Shown here one piece after another: positions 4,799-12,856 of a stretch of DNA of 64,000 bases; positions within the stretch are counted from its first letter, which is position 1; each line of letters begins with the position of its first letter. The stretch comes from Afifella marina DSM 2698 (lineage in GTDB: Bacteria > Pseudomonadota > Alphaproteobacteria > Rhizobiales > Afifellaceae), in contig NZ_FMVW01000001.1 in assembly GCF_900102695.1 (NCBI RefSeq), positions 62,001 to 126,000 of the forward strand. The letters run 5' to 3'. The notes under the pieces are model-generated. The model was not told the origin of the DNA and did not search any database. It was given only the letters and a program-made list of their open reading frames with translations. The translations under genes were made by a program, and so were the position numbers.

Positions 4799-5518
4799 TC
4801 AATCTGGCCTGAGAGACGCCGGCGCGACGGGGTAGAGCCGGTCGGCGCCAACCAGGAAGGCGATGAAGCCGCGCCTGGCGAAAAGGCCGACGAAGGCGCG
4901 GTCGAGGACGTTGAGCCCGCCGGTCAGGACGCCGAAAGATGGCAGGATGAGCCGTGTGCCGTCTGTAACGAAGGCGCGCCTGCGCACGCTGCGTCCGCGC
5001 CGGGCAATTTTCCCGCAAGGGTGGAGATGTCCGGCGATCTCCCCTTGGGCGATCGCTTCTGTGGGTTCGTGTCGGAAGGTGAGACCGCTGTGCGAAAGCT
5101 CTGCGAGACAATCTCCCCCGAGGCCCGGCGGCGGAGCGGGGTCATGATTGCCGGCGATCCAGATCCACTCGCGTCCCGCCTGCAGCGCGGCGATCTTGCC
5201 GCGGTCGATCTCGGCGAGACGCTCGGGCCCGCCGCCATCGTGAAAGCTGTCGCCGAGGCAGATGACGGTCTTCGGTTTGCGTCGCAGGATCAGGTTGTGA
5301 AGGGCGGCAAGGGTCGCGGCGCTGTCATAGGGCGGCAAAAACGTGCGCCTGCGGCCGAAGGACGACGCCTTTTCCAGATGGAGGTCCGCCACGACCAGCA
5401 TGCGTGAGGCCGGGTCCCAGAGCGCCCCGGAAACATCGAGTACCAGCTCTCGCCCGGAAAGCGCGATACGCGTCTCAGGCAAGATCTCGTCTCTGTGAGA
5501 AGTCTCCGCCAGCGCCAA
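4799..5518 (-). CDS. pdeM: Ligase-associated DNA damage response phosphoesterase PdeM
   Basis: The 239-residue protein has all calcineurin-type metallophosphoesterase motifs in order: DLH (in VVADLHLEKAS, about 44-54), GDSFHDGG (about 89), GNHD (about 120) and GHLHP (about 165). The overall sequence fits the PdeM family, which is found with an ATP-dependent DNA ligase, an Lhr-like helicase and an MBL exonuclease in proteobacterial DNA-repair clusters. It lies downstream of the helicase on the same strand and its start overlaps the helicase 3' end by 44 bases, implying co-transcription. The nuclease or phosphodiesterase substrate in the cell is not settled by sequence. Confidence 0.9.
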   Translation of the reverse strand: MALAETSHRDEILPETRIALSGRELVLDVSGALWDPASRMLVVADLHLEKASSFGRRRTFLPPYDSAATLAALHNLILRRKPKTVICLGDSFHDGGGPERLAEIDRGKIAALQAGREWIWIAGNHDPAPPPGLGGDCLAELSHSGLTFRHEPTEAIAQGEIAGHLHPCGKIARRGRSVRRRAFVTDGTRLILPSFGVLTGGLNVLDRAFVGLFARRGFIAFLVGADRLYPVAPASLRPD

Positions 5519-8066
5519 AATCTGCCTCGCTGCCCATAGCCTCGCGCATTAGCTCCTCGGAGGCTTCGACCAGAAGATCCTCCTGCGCCTCGCCGAAGAC
5601 CGGCTCCCGGCCGATTTCCAGCATGGCCGGGATGGCAAGCGGTGAGACATGCGCAAGCCTTTGATGCACGATTCGCCCCTGGATGCGCGACAGCATTTCG
5701 CCGAGCCGACGGATGTCGAGAAGGCCGGTCGCGGCGTCCGCGCGGGTTGCCTTGAGCAGAATATGGTCGGGCTCGTGGCTTCGCAGCACGTCATAAATGA
5801 GGTCGGTGGAGATCGTCACCTGTCGCCCGCTCTTCTCTTCGCCGGGATGCCGACGCTCGATCAGCCCAGCGATGATGGCGCAATTGCGAAAGCTGCGTTT
5901 GAGGAGATAGCTCTCCGCCAGCCACTCCTCCAGATCGTCGCCCAGCATGTCTTCATCGAAGAGTTCGGTAAGGGTGGGCGTGCCCGCCGCAAACAGCGCG
6001 CCCATGTCGCGCAGCCCCCACACCGCGAGCGCATAATCGTTGGCGACGAAGCCGAGCGGCCGGGCGCGAGCCCGCTCCAGCCGTCGCGTCAACAGCATAC
6101 CGAGCGTCTGATGTGCGAGCCGCCCTTCGAAGGGATAGGCGACCATGTAGAATTTCGTCTCGCGCGGAAAAGTCTCGACGAGAAGCGCGTCTTTCGACGG
6201 CAGCACCGAGACTTCCCGCTGGATGGATAGCCAGTCGCGCACCTGGGCGGGCAGCTTCTCCCAATGGGCGGGATCGGCGAGCATCGCCCGCACGCCGGCG
6301 GCAAGATAGGTGCTCAGGGGAAACTTGCCCCCGGCATAGGAAGGGATCGCCGGGTCGTTGGCCTCGGCGCGTGTGACCAGCGCCTCGTTTTCGTGAATGC
6401 CGACGAAGGCGAGGACCTGGCCGGCGAACTGAAACGTGTCGCCTGGAACGAGCTGCTCGAGAAAATACTCCTCGATCTTGCCGAGAACGCGCCCTCCGCG
6501 CAGAATCGTTCCGGGGCGACCGTCCTTGCTGCCGCGTCTGGAGGCAAGCCGCACATTGAGCATCGGCGCCTCGACGATGGTGCCGAGATTGAGGCGGTAT
6601 TGCTGGGCGAGCTTCGGATGTGAAAGCGCCCACAGCCCGTCCTTGCGACGCCGGATCTTGGCGTAGCGCTCGTAACTTCTGAGCGCATACCCACCGGTTG
6701 CTACGAAATCCACCGCCTGCTCGAAATCCTCATAGCTGAGGCCACGATAGCTTTCTGCCGAACGCACCTCGTCATAGAGGGCCTCAAGGTCGAACGGCGC
6801 GGCGACGGCCATGCCGAGAATATGCTGGCACAAGACGTCGAGTGCGCCCGGCCTGAGCGGCGGCGTATCCTGGATGCCGGCTTCATTGGCTTCGAGCGCG
6901 GCCTGGCATTCCATCACCTCGAAGCGGTTCGAGGGGACCAGCAGCCCGCGCGACGGCTCGTCCATGCGATGGTTGGCGCGCCCGATCCTCTGGGCGAGAC
7001 GGCTTGCACCTTTCGGCGCACCGACATGAATGACGAGATCGACATCGCCCCAGTCGATGCCGAGATCGAGCGTCGAGGTGGCGACGACCGCACGCAGCGA
7101 GCCGGCTGCCATCGCGGCCTCCACCTTGCGCCGCTGACCGCGGTCGAGCGAGCCGTGATGCAGCGCAATCGGAAGGGCCTCCTCGTTGATGCGCCAGAGC
7201 TCGGAGAACAGCATCTCCGCTTGCCAGCGCGTATTGACGAAGACGAGCGTCATGCGGTGGCTCTGTATGGCCTCAAGCACTTCCGGCAGGGCGTAGCGCG
7301 CCGTATGCCCGGACCACGGGATGCGTGCCTCCGAATGCCGGATCGAAATCTCCGGAGGCGCGCCTTCGCCAACCACCACCATCTCGGCGAGATTGCGGGG
7401 CGCGTCAGGTTGCTGCTCCACGAGCCAGGCACGCAGATCGTCGGGGAAGGCGACGGTCGCTGAGAGGCCGATCGTCCTGAGGCCCGGCGCAAGCCTGCGA
7501 AGCCTCGCAAGCCCGAGCGCCAAAAGGTCGCCGCGCTTTGAAGGGGTCAAAGAGTGTAATTCGTCGAAGACGACCGTCGACAGGCGCGCGAAGAAGCGCT
7601 CCGCATCGCGTGAGGCGATCAAAAGTGCGACCTGCTCCGGTGTCGTCAGAAGGATGTCGGGAGGGCTGAGTTTCTGCCGCTGTCGCTTATGGGTGGGTGT
7701 ATCGCCGGTGCGCGTTTCCACCGTCAGGGGCAGTCCCATCTCGGCGACCGGCATGCCGAGATTGCGCTCGATATCGACGGCGAGTGCCTTCAACGGCGAG
7801 ACATAAAGGGTGTGCGGACCGATGAAATGTGATGAATTGCGCCTCTCGTGCGCTTGCGAAAGCTCGATGAGTGAGGGCAGAAAGCCCGCGAGCGTCTTGC
7901 CAGCGCCGGTCGGAGCGATCAAAAGCGACGAGGATCCCGCCCGTGCTTGCGCGATGAGCTCGAGCTGATGGGGGCGCGGCGCCCAACCCCGGTCGGCGAA
8001 CCATTGCTGGAAACGCTCCGGCAGGAGCCCGTCTTCGCCAGTGGGGATCGCAGCGGGTGCCGTCAT
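5475..8066 (-). CDS. Ligase-associated DEXH-box DNA helicase (Lhr-like)
   Basis: The 863-residue protein is an SF2 helicase. Motif I is APTGAGKT (about 55), motif II is DELH (about 170), motif III is SATV, and motifs V and VI are in ATSTLDLGIDWGDVD and QRIGRANHR. The large region after about residue 420 matches the C-terminal winged-helix and accessory domains of Lhr-type helicases. It is shorter than the 1,500-residue Lhr proteins, as expected for the ligase-associated group. The frame is open upstream to 8384, but MTAPAAIPTGEDG at 8066 is the likely start because homologous sequence begins just after it. It is transcribed divergently from the RHH/RAMA gene and upstream of pdeM, forming one half of the repair cassette. 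Confidence 0.92.
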   Translation of the reverse strand: MTAPAAIPTGEDGLLPERFQQWFADRGWAPRPHQLELIAQARAGSSSLLIAPTGAGKTLAGFLPSLIELSQAHERRNSSHFIGPHTLYVSPLKALAVDIERNLGMPVAEMGLPLTVETRTGDTPTHKRQRQKLSPPDILLTTPEQVALLIASRDAERFFARLSTVVFDELHSLTPSKRGDLLALGLARLRRLAPGLRTIGLSATVAFPDDLRAWLVEQQPDAPRNLAEMVVVGEGAPPEISIRHSEARIPWSGHTARYALPEVLEAIQSHRMTLVFVNTRWQAEMLFSELWRINEEALPIALHHGSLDRGQRRKVEAAMAAGSLRAVVATSTLDLGIDWGDVDLVIHVGAPKGASRLAQRIGRANHRMDEPSRGLLVPSNRFEVMECQAALEANEAGIQDTPPLRPGALDVLCQHILGMAVAAPFDLEALYDEVRSAESYRGLSYEDFEQAVDFVATGGYALRSYERYAKIRRRKDGLWALSHPKLAQQYRLNLGTIVEAPMLNVRLASRRGSKDGRPGTILRGGRVLGKIEEYFLEQLVPGDTFQFAGQVLAFVGIHENEALVTRAEANDPAIPSYAGGKFPLSTYLAAGVRAMLADPAHWEKLPAQVRDWLSIQREVSVLPSKDALLVETFPRETKFYMVAYPFEGRLAHQTLGMLLTRRLERARARPLGFVANDYALAVWGLRDMGALFAAGTPTLTELFDEDMLGDDLEEWLAESYLLKRSFRNCAIIAGLIERRHPGEEKSGRQVTISTDLIYDVLRSHEPDHILLKATRADAATGLLDIRRLGEMLSRIQGRIVHQRLAHVSPLAIPAMLEIGREPVFGEAQEDLLVEASEELMREAMGSEADFGAGGDFSQRRDLA

Positions 8067-8179
8067 GAGGATGAGTTTAGGCTTGGTGACGGCCAAGTCG
8101 AGCGGACCTGACGTTGCGTCGCGTCCCCCGCGGCGTCGAAAAGTTCCACAATGCCAAGATGCGGCTGCCGGGGGGAGGC

Positions 8180-8683
8180 ATGGCCAAGAAGAAGAAGGGC
8201 AGCAAGAAGAAGGACGAGGAGAGCCTCGCCACGATTGCTGTCGACATGGACGTGCACAAACGGATCGAAGGTGCACGCGAGGATTTCGAGGAGACGCAGA
8301 ACGCCATCCTCCGTCGCCTGCTCGGCCTTGACGGCCGCAGAGGAGGGGGTGCGCCTGTGGAAGAAAGCCTCGGCGAACGTGCACGCCGCGCCAAGGGCGG
8401 CGGCGCCAAGGAGGGCGGCTGGTCGAAGATCGGCCGTCACGGTCACGAGGTGTTTCTGCCGAACGGGACGACCCTCAGAGCCGCTTATGCGGGCCAGACG
8501 GTGGAAGGTGTCATCGTCGATGGCCACTGGGTCGTGAACGGCACGAGCTACAATTCTCCCTCCGCCGCGCTCATCGCGCATGTGCGCACCCGCGACGGCA
8601 AGAAGGTCAATCTCAACGGCTGGCGCATCTGGGAGGTGCGGCGGCCCGACGATGACCGCTGGCTGCGGCTCGGCGAGATTTAG
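8180..8683 (+). CDS. Ribbon-helix-helix plus RAMA-like domain protein of the repair cassette
   Basis: I do not recognise a named family for this 167-residue protein. After a Lys-rich start (MAKKKKGSKKKDEE) residues about 16-50 read TIAVDMDVHKRIEGAREDF...ILRRLLGL, which closely resembles the SeqA N-terminal ribbon-helix-helix. Residues about 85-160 contain HEVFLPNGTTLRAAY, a conserved SPSAA and NGWRIWEV, the pattern of the RAMA domain (restriction enzyme/adenine methylase associated, also at the C-terminus of CcrM-type methyltransferases). A DNA-binding dimer that senses DNA state is therefore an inference. It sits between the helicase (divergent, 113 bases away) and the exonuclease (74 bases downstream). 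ATG 8180 is the likely start; in-frame ATGs at 8114 and 8159 are alternatives, since the purine-rich stretch sits very close to 8180. Confidence 0.7.
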   Translation: MAKKKKGSKKKDEESLATIAVDMDVHKRIEGAREDFEETQNAILRRLLGLDGRRGGGAPVEESLGERARRAKGGGAKEGGWSKIGRHGHEVFLPNGTTLRAAYAGQTVEGVIVDGHWVVNGTSYNSPSAALIAHVRTRDGKKVNLNGWRIWEVRRPDDDRWLRLGEI

Positions 8684-8757
8684 GGGCAAGGCGTGAATGC
8701 TCCGCCACGGTGTGCCGGAGACATGGAAAACCTCGCCCGCACCCCTATCTCGGGCAG

Positions 8758-9768
8758 ATGCGCCCGACCGAACTTTTGTGCACCACGCCGAAAGGCCTTT
8801 ATTGCCCGCCGGGCGATTTCTACATCGATCCGACGCGTCCGGTGCCGCGCGCGCTCATCACCCACGGCCATGCCGACCATGCGCGTGCCGGCCATGGCGC
8901 CGTGATGGCGACGTCGCAGACCTTGAAGATCATGGCCGCCCGATATGGGGCCGATTTCGCCGCCGCGACGCAGGAGGCGAAGCTCGGCGAAGTGGTTGCC
9001 ATCAACGGCGCCTCCGTCAGCTTCCATCCAGCGGGTCACGTCCTGGGCTCGGCCCAGATCGCGGTTGAAAAGGACGGCTTCCGCGTCGTCGCTTCGGGCG
9101 ATTACAAACGTCGCAAGGATCCGACCTGTGCCGCCTTCGAGCCGGTCGCCTGCGATGTCTTCATCACCGAGGCGACCTTTGCTCTGCCGGTTTTCTGCCA
9201 TCCGGATGATCGCGGTGAGATCGCCAAGCTCATTCACTCCACCGAAGTCTTCCCCGAGCGCACCCATCTCGTCGGCGCCTATGCCCTCGGCAAGGCGCAG
9301 CGCGTCATCGGCCTGCTTCGTGAGGCCGGATACGACCGAACGATCTATATCCATGGCGCCCTAAAGAGTTTGTGCGATCTCTATCGCGAGGAGGGCGTCG
9401 ATCTCGGGCCGCTCGCTCCCGCGACCGTGGATACTGCGCGCAAAGGCGAGTTTGCCGGTGCCTTCGTGGTCTGCCCGCCCTCGGCGTTTTCCGATCGCTG
9501 GGCACGCCGTTTTCCCGATCCCCTCGCGTGTTTCGCGTCAGGCTGGATGATGATCCGCCAGCGGGCCCGACAGCGCGGCGTGGAACTGCCGCTCGTCATC
9601 TCCGATCATTGCGATTGGGGGGAGCTGTTGCAGACGATCGAAGAAATTGCGCCCGGCGAAGTGTGGATCACGCATGGCCGCGACGACGCGCTGTTGCGCT
9701 GGTGCGAGCTCAACGGCGTTGCTGCCCGCCCGCTGCATCTTGCGGGGTACGAGGACGAGCCCGATTGA
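8758..9768 (+). CDS. Ligase-associated DNA exonuclease (MBL / beta-CASP fold)
   Basis: This 336-residue metallo-beta-lactamase-fold nuclease carries HGHADHAR (motif 2, about residue 37), PAGHVLGSAQ (motif 3), ASGDYKRRKDPT (motif 4) and HCDWGEL plus ITHGRDD in the beta-CASP part. It corresponds to the exonuclease that accompanies the cisplatin-response type ATP-dependent DNA ligase in proteobacteria. ATG 8758 gives the start MRPTELLCTTPKGLYCPPGDF that is typical of the family; the frame stays open to 8710. It follows the RHH/RAMA gene on the same strand and converges with the GNAT gene three bases past its stop. Confidence 0.9.
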   Translation: MRPTELLCTTPKGLYCPPGDFYIDPTRPVPRALITHGHADHARAGHGAVMATSQTLKIMAARYGADFAAATQEAKLGEVVAINGASVSFHPAGHVLGSAQIAVEKDGFRVVASGDYKRRKDPTCAAFEPVACDVFITEATFALPVFCHPDDRGEIAKLIHSTEVFPERTHLVGAYALGKAQRVIGLLREAGYDRTIYIHGALKSLCDLYREEGVDLGPLAPATVDTARKGEFAGAFVVCPPSAFSDRWARRFPDPLACFASGWMMIRQRARQRGVELPLVISDHCDWGELLQTIEEIAPGEVWITHGRDDALLRWCELNGVAARPLHLAGYEDEPD

Positions 9769-9771
9769 GGC

Positions 9772-10335
9772 TCAGGCGGCCACGCCGGCAGGCTTCGGCT
9801 GCAGCAGGCTCAATGTCGCCTGGAACGCGCTTTCTGCGTCGTCGAGCGCTTCACCGTACCAGGAGAACGGATTGGCAAGTGGCGGTTCGAGCAGAGCGTC
9901 GACTTCACCTTCGTCATAAGTGAGACGGGCGCCGAGCTCGCGCGCGAGCTTCAGCATGCGCCGGTTCTCTTGCAGACAGAAGAGATGCAGCTGGCGAAAG
10001 CCGCGATTGCGGGCGAGCGTGAAGGTGCGCGCAAGAAGCGCCCGGCCGACGCCTCGCCCCTGCCAGGCCTCTTCGATGGCGAACGCGGCCTCGGCTTTGC
10101 CCGTCCATTCTTTGGTGAGCGGGTGCAGTTCCGCCGAGCCGCGGATAACGCCGTTGACGAAGTAGCCGAGGATCGTGGTGTCCAGATCCCAGGCTTCGCG
10201 AACATAATTCTGGATGCGCGCGTCGTTGACGGGGCCAGCAAAGCGCATACGCCGCGCCTCGGGGCCGAGACGACACAGATGCTCCGTGAAGAGCGCGGCC
10301 TCATACGGCCAGAGCTTGCGGATGTAAGCCGTCAT
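9772..10335 (-). CDS. GNAT family N-acetyltransferase
   Basis: The 187-residue product has a GNAT fold: the acetyl-CoA pyrophosphate-binding motif A is in EEAWQGRGVGRALLARTFTL (Q/R-x-x-G-x-G/A, about 95-115) and motif B follows in LHLFCLQENRRMLKLARELG. The N-terminus starts directly with the first strand and has no extra domain. The substrate cannot be predicted. It lies in the middle of the repair cassette on the opposite strand to the exonuclease and ligase, three bases from the exonuclease stop, and may be co-transcribed with the 66-residue gene upstream (22 bases apart). Confidence 0.85.
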   Translation of the reverse strand: MTAYIRKLWPYEAALFTEHLCRLGPEARRMRFAGPVNDARIQNYVREAWDLDTTILGYFVNGVIRGSAELHPLTKEWTGKAEAAFAIEEAWQGRGVGRALLARTFTLARNRGFRQLHLFCLQENRRMLKLARELGARLTYDEGEVDALLEPPLANPFSWYGEALDDAESAFQATLSLLQPKPAGVAA

Positions 10336-10861: not shown

Positions 10862-12490
10862 ATGCAGGCCTTTGCCGCCCTCCTCGACCGTCTCACCCTG
10901 ACGCCGCAGCGCAACGGCAAGATCAGGCTTCTCGTCGATTATCTGCGTCAGGTGAATGATCCCGATCGCGGTTACGCCGTTGCGGCGATCACCGGCGATC
11001 TCGACATCGTCTCGGTCAAGCCAGCGATGGTCCGCGTCTTGGTGGAGGAGCGGGTCGATCCCGTCCTCTTCGCGCTTTCCTATGATTATGTGGGCGACCT
11101 CGCTGAGACCGTCTCCCTGATCTGGCCGGGCGAGAGCGATCCCGGCGCATCGCTGCATCTCGCCGAGGTGGTAGAACGGCTCAGGGTCGCATCGCGCCTC
11201 GAAGGGCCGAAGCTCGTCGCCGGCTGGCTCGACGAACTCGATCCGAGCGGGCGTTACGCGCTTTTGAAGCTCATCACCGGCGGGCTTAGGATCGGCGTGA
11301 CGGCCCGCCTCGCGCGCCAGGCCTTGGCGGAATTCGGTGGTTGCCCGGCAACCGAGATCGAGGAGATGTGGCATGGCCTGAAGCCGCCTTACGCCGATCT
11401 GTTCGCCTTTCTGGAAGGGCGGGGAGAAAGGCCGCAATCCAAACAGAAGGTGCCCTTCCGGCCGGTGATGCTGGCAAGCGCCATTCAGGACGAGGATTTC
11501 GCGAAGCTCGAGCCGAGAGATTATGCGGCCGAGTGGAAGTGGGACGGGATTCGGATCCAGGCAGCGGCTTCAGGAGGAGAATGCCGGCTTTATTCCCGCA
11601 CCGGCGATGACATCTCCGGTGCCTTTCCCGACGTTTTGGAGCAGATGGACTTCGATGGCGCGATCGACGGCGAGCTCCTGGTGGCGCGGCAAGGCGAAGA
11701 GGGGATGGCGATCGCGCCCTTTTCGGATTTGCAGCAACGCCTCAACCGCAAGCGCGTGACGTCGAAGGCACTAAAGGATTATCCGGCCTTCATCCGGGCC
11801 TACGATCTCTTGCAGGAAGGCGACGAAGATCTCCGACCGCTTGCCTTCGCAGAACGGCGGCGCCGGCTTGAGGATTTCATCGCTCGTTTGTCCTCGCCGC
11901 GCATCGATATTTCTCCCCTCGTCGACTTCAGCGATTGGGACGAGCTTGCGCATCTTCGGGCCAACCCGCCCGCGGAGGGCCGCCTCGATGAAATCGCCGA
12001 AGGCCTGATGCTGAAGCGCTGGGACACCGCCTATGTGGCCGGGCGACCGAAAGGCCCCTGGTTCAAATGGAAGCGTGATCCCTTCCTGGTCGATGCCGTG
12101 CTCATGTATGCCCAGCGCGGCCACGGCCGCCGCTCCTCGTTTTATTCCGATTACACATTTGGCGTCTGGACAGCGGAGAAAGCCGAGGATGGAGAACTTG
12201 TCCCCGTCGGCAAGGCTTATTTCGGTTTCACGGATGAGGAGCTGAAGGAGCTCGACCGGTTCGTGCGCAACAACACGGTCGATCGCTTCGGCCCTGTGCG
12301 GGCGGTGCGGGCCGGGCCTGACGCCGGTCTCGTCCTCGAGGTGGCCTTCGAAGGCCTCGCCCGTTCCAGCCGCCACAAATCCGGCGTCGCCATGCGCTTT
12401 CCGCGCATCAGCCGTATCAGATGGGACAAGCCCGCTGCGGAGGCCGATCGTCTCGACGACCTGGAAAAACTGCTGCCGCAGCAGGTATAA
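10862..12490 (+). CDS. ATP-dependent DNA ligase, cisplatin damage response type
   Basis: The 542-residue protein has the three parts of an ATP-dependent ligase: an N-terminal DNA-binding domain (about 1-200), an adenylation domain with the catalytic lysine Lys226 in EWKWDGIR, further nucleotidyltransferase motifs (SRTGDDIS, DGELLV, EGLMLKRWD, and motif V in FKWKRDP), and an OB-fold C-terminus ending in a ligase-typical HKSGVAMRFPRISRIRWDK. It belongs to the family named for cisplatin damage response that is associated with an Lhr helicase, PdeM and an MBL exonuclease, all of which lie within 6 kb here. It lacks the polymerase and nuclease domains of LigD, so end-joining by itself is not implied. 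Confidence 0.93.
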   Translation: MQAFAALLDRLTLTPQRNGKIRLLVDYLRQVNDPDRGYAVAAITGDLDIVSVKPAMVRVLVEERVDPVLFALSYDYVGDLAETVSLIWPGESDPGASLHLAEVVERLRVASRLEGPKLVAGWLDELDPSGRYALLKLITGGLRIGVTARLARQALAEFGGCPATEIEEMWHGLKPPYADLFAFLEGRGERPQSKQKVPFRPVMLASAIQDEDFAKLEPRDYAAEWKWDGIRIQAAASGGECRLYSRTGDDISGAFPDVLEQMDFDGAIDGELLVARQGEEGMAIAPFSDLQQRLNRKRVTSKALKDYPAFIRAYDLLQEGDEDLRPLAFAERRRRLEDFIARLSSPRIDISPLVDFSDWDELAHLRANPPAEGRLDEIAEGLMLKRWDTAYVAGRPKGPWFKWKRDPFLVDAVLMYAQRGHGRRSSFYSDYTFGVWTAEKAEDGELVPVGKAYFGFTDEELKELDRFVRNNTVDRFGPVRAVRAGPDAGLVLEVAFEGLARSSRHKSGVAMRFPRISRIRWDKPAAEADRLDDLEKLLPQQV

Positions 12491-12577: not shown

Positions 12578-12856
12578 ATGGCGGGCCGGATGACACGCTT
12601 CCTGGGCGATTCCCCATTTCGGGTCCTTCTTCGTCTCATCGTCCTGTCGGTGATCGTCGGCCTGGTGCTGTCGGTGCTCAACGTGCATCCGTTCGATATC
12701 TATTATTGGGCGGAGCGCTTCGTCATGCGCGTCTACCACATGGGTTTCGCCGTCTTTTCCGACGCCTTCGGCTACTTCCTCTTTGGCGCGCTCATTGTCG
12801 TCCCGATTTTCCTCGTCATGCGCCTGTTCTCTTTGATGGGCGGGCGCCGAGACTGA
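12578..12856 (+). CDS. DUF6460 small membrane protein
   Basis: A 92-residue protein with two transmembrane helices (about 15-35 and 62-85) separated by an aromatic loop (PFDIYYWAERFVMRVYHMGF). The opening RMTRFLGDSPFRVLLRL and the second helix YFLFGALIVVPIFLVMRL fit the DUF6460 family of alphaproteobacteria, which has no known function. AGGAGA lies about ten bases before the ATG. It stands alone between the ligase and the MATE gene. Confidence 0.8.
   Translation: MAGRMTRFLGDSPFRVLLRLIVLSVIVGLVLSVLNVHPFDIYYWAERFVMRVYHMGFAVFSDAFGYFLFGALIVVPIFLVMRLFSLMGGRRD

Follow-up and report, generated by a model that had tools for sequence, protein, structure and literature searches.

The ligase-associated cassette and the gene in its divergent gap

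The window, i.e., the whole stretch of 64,000 nucleotides from Afifella marina DSM 2698 analysed here, carries a ligase-associated DNA repair cassette in which all four members of the named set (Lhr-Core, MPE, EXO and LIG) are present, clustered and matched above cut-off by the equivalog models TIGR04120 to TIGR04123. The link between Lhr-Core and MPE is reported as conserved in bacteria, with 276 of 319 genomes showing it (PMC8301817). What is extra here with respect to the named cassette is a gene in the divergent gap, whose product joins a ribbon-helix-helix (RHH) of the SeqA type to a RAMA domain and is referred to below as RHH-RAMA. The features of the locus are as follows:

4799..5518, minus strand: ligase-associated endonuclease PdeM (MPE); TIGR04123, 212.6 bits against a cut-off of 150
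5475..8066, minus strand: ligase-associated DEXH (Lhr-Core) helicase; TIGR04121, 1113 bits against a cut-off of 850
8067..8179, no strand: divergent intergenic region common to the helicase and RHH-RAMA genes, 113 nt
8180..8683, plus strand: gene of the RHH-RAMA protein (167 aa), with a start that all seven aligned carriers keep
8180..8230, plus strand: lysine-rich N-terminal tail, 17 aa with seven K+R
8231..8332, plus strand: SeqA_N-type ribbon-helix-helix, residues 18-51
8387..8443, plus strand: linker motif RAK[GS]GGA..GGW[SA]KI.R[HF]G of the Afifellaceae copies, residues 70-88
8393..8680, plus strand: RAMA domain, spanning approximately residues 72-167 and including the NGWxxW motif; Pfam core at 96-153
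8758..9768, plus strand: ligase-associated MBL exonuclease, 74 nt downstream of the RHH-RAMA gene; TIGR04122, 484.8 bits against a cut-off of 325
9772..10335, minus strand: GNAT acetyltransferase (Pfam), between exonuclease and ligase
10862..12490, plus strand: ATP-dependent DNA ligase of the cassette; TIGR04120, 826 bits against a cut-off of 400

The initial annotation had placed the gene between the divergent helicase and the MBL exonuclease, at 74 nt from the latter, and the curated models for both neighbours (TIGR04121 and TIGR04122) confirm this placement. The distance between RHH-RAMA and the exonuclease is similarly short in six of the seven carriers (7-104 nt) and reaches 439 nt in one. 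The position of the gene, first on the exonuclease side, suggests that the two are co-expressed; a consensus scan, which is weak evidence, found neither a promoter-like site nor a plus-strand terminator-like site in 7950-8850, and no sigma-70-like promoter in the divergent gap. The GNAT acetyltransferase was found in four of six compared carrier loci, all of them from Afifella, and the loci of two other carrier genera gave no match to it.

The RHH-RAMA gene is real and under purifying selection. The open reading frame list and its translation give a product of 167 residues, and a further in-frame ATG is present in the window 21 nt upstream of the chosen start. In pairwise comparisons with four relatives, dN/dS lies at 0.06-0.26, close to the values of PdeM (0.08-0.29) and above those of the helicase (0.05-0.17). 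Two traits mark the Afifellaceae proteins. The first is the basic N-terminal tail, which measures 15-23 residues with 5-8 lysines or arginines in all seven copies, as compared with 2-11 residues and 0-2 such positions in the 25 rows measured from elsewhere (that of phage RHph_X2_26 left out), these lengths depending on start codons picked by hand, with a possible start further upstream in G167 that would give a longer basic tail. The second is the linker motif, with 13 of its 19 positions invariant among the seven sequences, which is not kept in the 11 remaining rows of an 18-row alignment.

Domain architecture

Both domains, the SeqA-type RHH and the RAMA module, are real, with the window protein alone falling below the Pfam cut-offs: RAMA is matched at residues 96-153 with E=1.2e-4 (22.4 bits, cut-off 35.2), and SeqA_N at residues 18-51 with E=0.0027 (17.4 bits, cut-off 23). 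The assignment becomes firmer across the family. When the members of an alignment of 18 full-length sequences, seven of which are close Afifellaceae orthologues, were each scanned with Pfam at E<=0.1, RAMA was matched by 16 (best 4.5e-8) and SeqA_N by 12 (best 1.2e-6), the other matches being DUF4357 and DUF2924 in six each, DUF7557 in three, VAPB_antitox in two and DUF2483 in one. A profile built from these 18 relatives found a match at E<=1e-4 in 28 of 349 genomes of the phylum; 15 of the matching frames were read, and the eight SeqA-looking ones, when scanned with Pfam, all carried PF17206 and PF03925 far above cut-off, so that the RHH-RAMA profile retrieves true SeqA. Moreover, the top PDB sequence matches are the SeqA structures 3fmt (E 0.0014) and 1xrx (E 0.0023). 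Neither NCBIfam nor PHROGs gave a match for the protein, no methylase domain was matched in Pfam or NCBIfam, and PADLOC returned partial matches to its PDC-S14 models across residues 46-159.

Structural comparison points the same way. The second AlphaFold model, built with 11 sequences, is only fair (pLDDT 72.5, pTM 0.50), and Foldseek with two models gave no match at E<=0.001, SeqA 3fmt_B appearing at a non-significant E of 2.2 (probability 0.77). When the 999 top chains from Foldseek were realigned with VIA-align, the RAMA domain of MPND ranked first and second against model residues 71-167 (7YDW, Z 5.4 over 75 residues at 3.2 A; 7YDT, Z 5.2 over 78 residues at 4.0 A), the next row having a Z of 3.4, and the SeqA N-terminal domain 1xrx gave a Z of 3.0, with 33 of 35 residues aligned and 33% identity. 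These Z values are modest, and since a Z below 8 may reflect a common arrangement, the structural comparison backs up the sequence evidence and cannot stand alone. CcrM (6PBD) was absent among the best 50 of the 999 rows and may stand lower in the ranking, and hhalign of 12 family members against 16 CcrM-type RAMA domains aligned 27 columns, i.e., the NGWxxW end only, with a probability of 67%. The two domains proposed in the initial annotation thus hold up: the profile matches, below cut-off for the single protein, gain strength across the relatives and in the retrieval of SeqA, and MPND leads the structural ranking, even though Foldseek returned nothing significant.

With respect to SeqA (PF17206; 1XRX, 3FMT), the RHH belongs to the same sequence family, and the difference lies in what follows it: SeqA has the C-terminal domain PF03925, whereas RHH-RAMA has the RAMA module in that place, and PF03925 was not matched by the window protein in Pfam and does not appear among the listed matches of the 18 relatives. 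In SeqA, the N-terminal RHH oligomerises into dimers or filaments, and it is the separate C-terminal domain that reads hemimethylated GATC. The earlier statement that a SeqA-type RHH reads methylated DNA was therefore inaccurate, as the reading domain is the one not found here. RAMA match and NGWxxW motif are common to RHH-RAMA and the known RAMA proteins (PF18755; the C-terminal domain of CcrM, and MPND in 7YDT and 7YDW), but the protein is devoid of a methylase, MPN or nuclease domain and has its RAMA joined to an RHH. DUF2924 and DUF4357, the names given to three plasmid relatives, are each matched by six of the 18 relatives; the window protein has no match to either at E<=1, and the names are silent on the RHH.

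The RAMA domain of CcrM contacts DNA phosphates through Ser315, His317, Asn330, Trp332 and Arg350 (PMC6787082), and the roles of N330, W332 and R350 in phosphate contact have been described together with mutants (PMC6787082, PMC10359602). Among 33 aligned RHH-RAMA rows, the position of N330 is occupied by N in 28 and by D in five, the equivalent of W332 is kept in 32 and that of W335 in all 33, with both the N330 and W332 equivalents present in all seven Afifellaceae proteins. In contrast to CcrM, the Arg350 equivalent is missing from every Afifellaceae copy (it is R in 21 of the 33 rows), and no position could be aligned to S315 or H317, so that contact with DNA may be weaker or different.

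Distribution and history

The gene was found in seven of 11 Afifellaceae genomes, five from the genus of the window and two from further genera; the relatives include Afifella pfennigii and Afifella sp. IM 167 (GTDB contigs). In all seven carriers, i.e., six compared loci plus the window, it occupies the same slot between helicase and exonuclease, and in six of them the gap between these two genes was measured at 644-1035 nt. Two Afifellaceae genomes without the gene, G007 and G010, have helicase and exonuclease 100 and 81 nt apart, respectively; in G005 they are on separate contigs, and in G008 no exonuclease match was found. Two non-carriers have long gaps of 1035 and 752 nt, which are occupied by other or doubtful frames. 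As the gene is missing where helicase and exonuclease stay side by side (G007 and G010), it is dispensable to the cassette.

A search for the exonuclease at E<=1e-40 succeeded in 149 of the 249 genomes examined from the order, and inspection of 35 exonuclease loci with 1.5 kb of flank gave an RHH-RAMA match in six, all Afifellaceae, and in none of the other 29. Co-localisation with the cassette is thus strict within Afifellaceae and not seen outside it. Across 397 genomes from the order, an early family profile gave matches in 14 (E<=0.001), seven of them Afifellaceae; the others comprise three full-length proteins (G365, G167 and G218), sited elsewhere than the cassette, and four partial ones. 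In the class, 12 of 337 genomes matched, namely that of the window, four more with full-length proteins (G594, G412, G540 and G424) and seven with partial matches, the partial matches of both searches being left out of the full-length set. The neighbourhood survey envisaged at the outset therefore has a split outcome, and the same applies to the proposal of a component beyond the named four genes, which stands for seven of 11 genomes of one family, through a single gain to judge from the trees, and fails at 29 of 35 exonuclease loci. A role as a general fifth member of the cassette was rejected on this distribution.

In the RHH-RAMA tree, the seven Afifellaceae copies form one clade (100/100) on a stem of 1.29. 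In the helicase tree, from which G008 is missing, G006, a carrier, falls into a group with two non-carriers, G007 and G010 (99/98), which G005, also a non-carrier, joins at the next level (93/93), so that the simplest history is one gain followed by at least two losses. These trees indicate that RHH-RAMA was captured once by the Afifellaceae ancestor and later lost in some lineages. As the copies form one clade with one gain, the seven carriers count as one event.

A somewhat similar gene was noted in another family, in genome G295 (L076:6971-7441, contig C105), the C-terminal half of its product resembling RHH-RAMA proteins in BLAST, with no RHH. On one side of it are the ligase-associated helicase and PdeM, as a pair, and on the other a gene related to that at 12578-12856 of the window; this is the same syntenic interval, in a genome that gave no exonuclease match over cut-off. 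The idea of a special tie to the Afifellaceae copies did not hold: BLAST gives it no preference, the RHH is missing, no Pfam match was obtained at E<=0.01, and the gene was found in one of 15 genomes of that family.

Relatives on phages, plasmids and beside methylases

Plasmids of Rhodovastum, Variovorax, Rhizobium and Azonexus carry full-length relatives, as do a Rhizobium phage, IMG/VR contigs and scattered genomes. Two Rhodococcus plasmid records gave weak matches, and Sinorhizobium a partial one. Viral contigs scanned with the window protein itself gave no match, and the viral relatives were recovered through diverged subgroups of the family. In six contigs (L131, L132, L136, L137, L143 and L144), the RHH-RAMA gene has a phage terminase, portal or tape-measure gene nearby, as revealed by Pfam searches of selected neighbours.

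A DNA methylase or restriction gene adjoins or encloses RHH-RAMA in six of 26 loci from outside Afifellaceae. For instance, an N6/N4 methylase lies 47 nt downstream of it in L145 and in its near-copy L146 (7980-9274 in each). In L130, a BsuBI/PstI-type restriction gene adjoins it, with an Eco57I-type methylase beyond. The neighbour is an N-6 methylase with S subunit in Rhizobium sp. 007 and a D12 adenine methylase in phage RHph_X2_26. Finally, in G167 (L070:8088-9687) the gene lies on the opposite strand inside a methylase-type gene, with the N-terminal methylase part on one side and, downstream, an Mrr-type part on the other. By a motif count, methylases make up four of 51 immediate neighbours and three of 328 other genes of the same loci (one-sided Fisher p=0.0075), a figure given as computed, in which the loci are not fully independent (L145 and L146 being near-copies at the gene) and the methylase that GenBank annotates upstream of RHH-RAMA in RHph_X2_26 is scored as far owing to a spurious frame. 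In the other 20 of the 26 loci, no methylase or restriction neighbour was seen by motif and partial Pfam searches, some contigs ending close by. Genes in unannotated loci were called with a custom script, some of whose calls are wrong.

Three observations on individual loci can be added. L145 and L146 are phage-like contigs in which RHH-RAMA and the N6/N4 methylase look like an operon pair. At the start of a contig of G594 (L072:41-1205), the gene is bracketed by duplicate 3' ends of a moeB-type-looking gene, identical at 227 of 260 positions at an offset of 905, which may denote mobility or an assembly artefact. The neighbours of the G365 and G424 genes, uvrD and polA, respectively, were set aside as evidence of a link to repair, and the 'MTase/RM neighbour' label of the RHH-RAMA tree was likewise given no weight.

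Possible functions

The explanation we tentatively prefer, to which we give somewhat less than an even chance, is that RHH-RAMA is an oligomeric, mostly sequence-nonspecific binder of duplex DNA, domesticated beside the repair enzymes as an accessory. The combination of a SeqA-type RHH with a backbone-binding RAMA suggests a multivalent, mostly nonspecific DNA clamp. The RAMA domains of CcrM and MPND are described as holding the duplex by its backbone, with no base contacts and no sequence specificity (PMC6787082, PMC9963953). The RHH would pair two chains, or more as in SeqA, each chain's RAMA head would hold duplex DNA in the manner of CcrM and MPND, and the resulting assembly might clamp or bridge DNA with little regard to sequence. 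It belongs to a family that occurs as an accessory gene on phages and plasmids and in scattered genomes, in some cases next to methylase or restriction genes, from which one copy would have entered the divergent gap of the cassette in an Afifellaceae ancestor. This copy carries there a lysine-rich tail and a conserved linker, and purifying selection has maintained it. The protein is probably expressed together with the exonuclease, and perhaps with the ligase, and may bind or organise the DNA on which the cassette enzymes work. In favour of this explanation are the evidence for both domains, the kept equivalents of N330, W332 and W335, the tail, the purifying selection, the common slot and single clade of the carriers, the short distance to the exonuclease in most of them, and the lack of a clear operator. 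Against it stand the absence of the gene from G007 and G010, the missing Arg350 equivalent in Afifellaceae, the sub-cut-off Pfam scores of the window protein, the modest structural matches and short hhalign alignment, and the 439-nt distance to the exonuclease in one carrier. The ligase-associated cassette gains a candidate accessory protein in one family.

The main rival, less probable but with a real share of the likelihood, is a local transcription regulator, which as the first gene of the exonuclease side would bind the shared promoter region and control both arms of the cassette as well as itself. The gene occupies the divergent gap itself, with 113 nt to the start of the helicase gene and 74 nt to that of the exonuclease, and keeps this place in all seven carriers; VAPB_antitox, matched by two of the 18 relatives, is an antitoxin model of the RHH type, and many RHH proteins are repressors. 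The gap itself argues against this rival. Between 8067 and 8179, a single 9-nt inverted pair was found, which is imperfect and widely spaced, and the alignment of the gaps of the seven carriers revealed no obvious common palindrome and poor conservation between genera. The window's gap has no GANTC or LexA-like box, and across the carriers GATC and LexA-like sites gave nothing consistent. Besides, the strand residues of the RHH are SeqA-like (TIEID/TIAVD) and serve oligomerisation in SeqA, and RAMA is reported as sequence-nonspecific, as mentioned above. A role as DNA-state sensor or regulator of the cassette, as put forward in the initial annotation, is possible, with no clear operator, consistent GANTC or LexA-like box in the gap.

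That the gene is a leftover passenger of a mobile element, of the phage moron type, which landed in the gap with no connection to cassette function, is unlikely. The occurrence of the same architecture near the phage genes named above, on plasmids and in scattered genomes, and the two or more losses in Afifellaceae on the simplest history, would agree with such an origin. However, purifying selection about as strong as that on PdeM, a single old acquisition kept in place across three genera, and the conserved tail and linker speak against it.

The most interesting rival, and an improbable one, is a SeqA-like reader of adenine methylation in a CcrM-methylated genome, in which RAMA heads carried on RHH oligomers would detect GANTC methylated on one or both strands, or related DNA states, and would thereby point the repair enzymes to newly made DNA. 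In its favour, the SeqA N-terminal domain is paired here with the DNA-binding module of CcrM-type methylases; 240 of the 249 genomes searched in the order, that of the window included, have a RAMA match, the three that were checked all being methylase-RAMA proteins; the SeqA C-terminal domain was found in none of 150 genomes of the order, with a positive E. coli control; relatives adjoin adenine or N6/N4 methylases; and RAMA has been proposed as a reader of modified bases (PMC11037411, PMC12839542, PMC9963953). On the other hand, CcrM's RAMA makes phosphate contacts only and the CcrM structure is described as unchanged on hemimethylated DNA (PMC6787082), a 6mA preference of the MPND RAMA was not confirmed in one study (PMC9963953), GANTC is missing from the promoter gap of five of the seven carriers, two having single sites, and both the narrow distribution in the order and the 20 loci with no visible methylase or restriction neighbour fit such a reader poorly. 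At least as improbable is the wider proposal that, where SeqA is missing, RHH-RAMA is its analogue, with the same RHH and a methylase-family head recognising the state of adenine methylation, which would couple this signal to Lhr, EXO, LIG and PdeM in Afifellaceae and work alongside the elements' own methylases in phages and plasmids. On a small scale, RHH-RAMA could serve to test whether adenine methylation is read by RAMA.

In the text available from the open-licence literature (including PMC9963953, PMC11037411, PMC12839542 and PMC12707154), the pairing of a SeqA-type RHH with RAMA was not found described, and fusions of RAMA with nucleases and with DUF3780 are noted there (PMC11037411, PMC12839542). 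Plasmid records name the RHH-RAMA genes hypothetical, DUF2924 or DUF4357. In G461 (L062:1474-2853), a RAMA-type domain forms the C-terminus of a longer protein, the visible N-terminal part of which looks, by eye, like a helicase or endonuclease.
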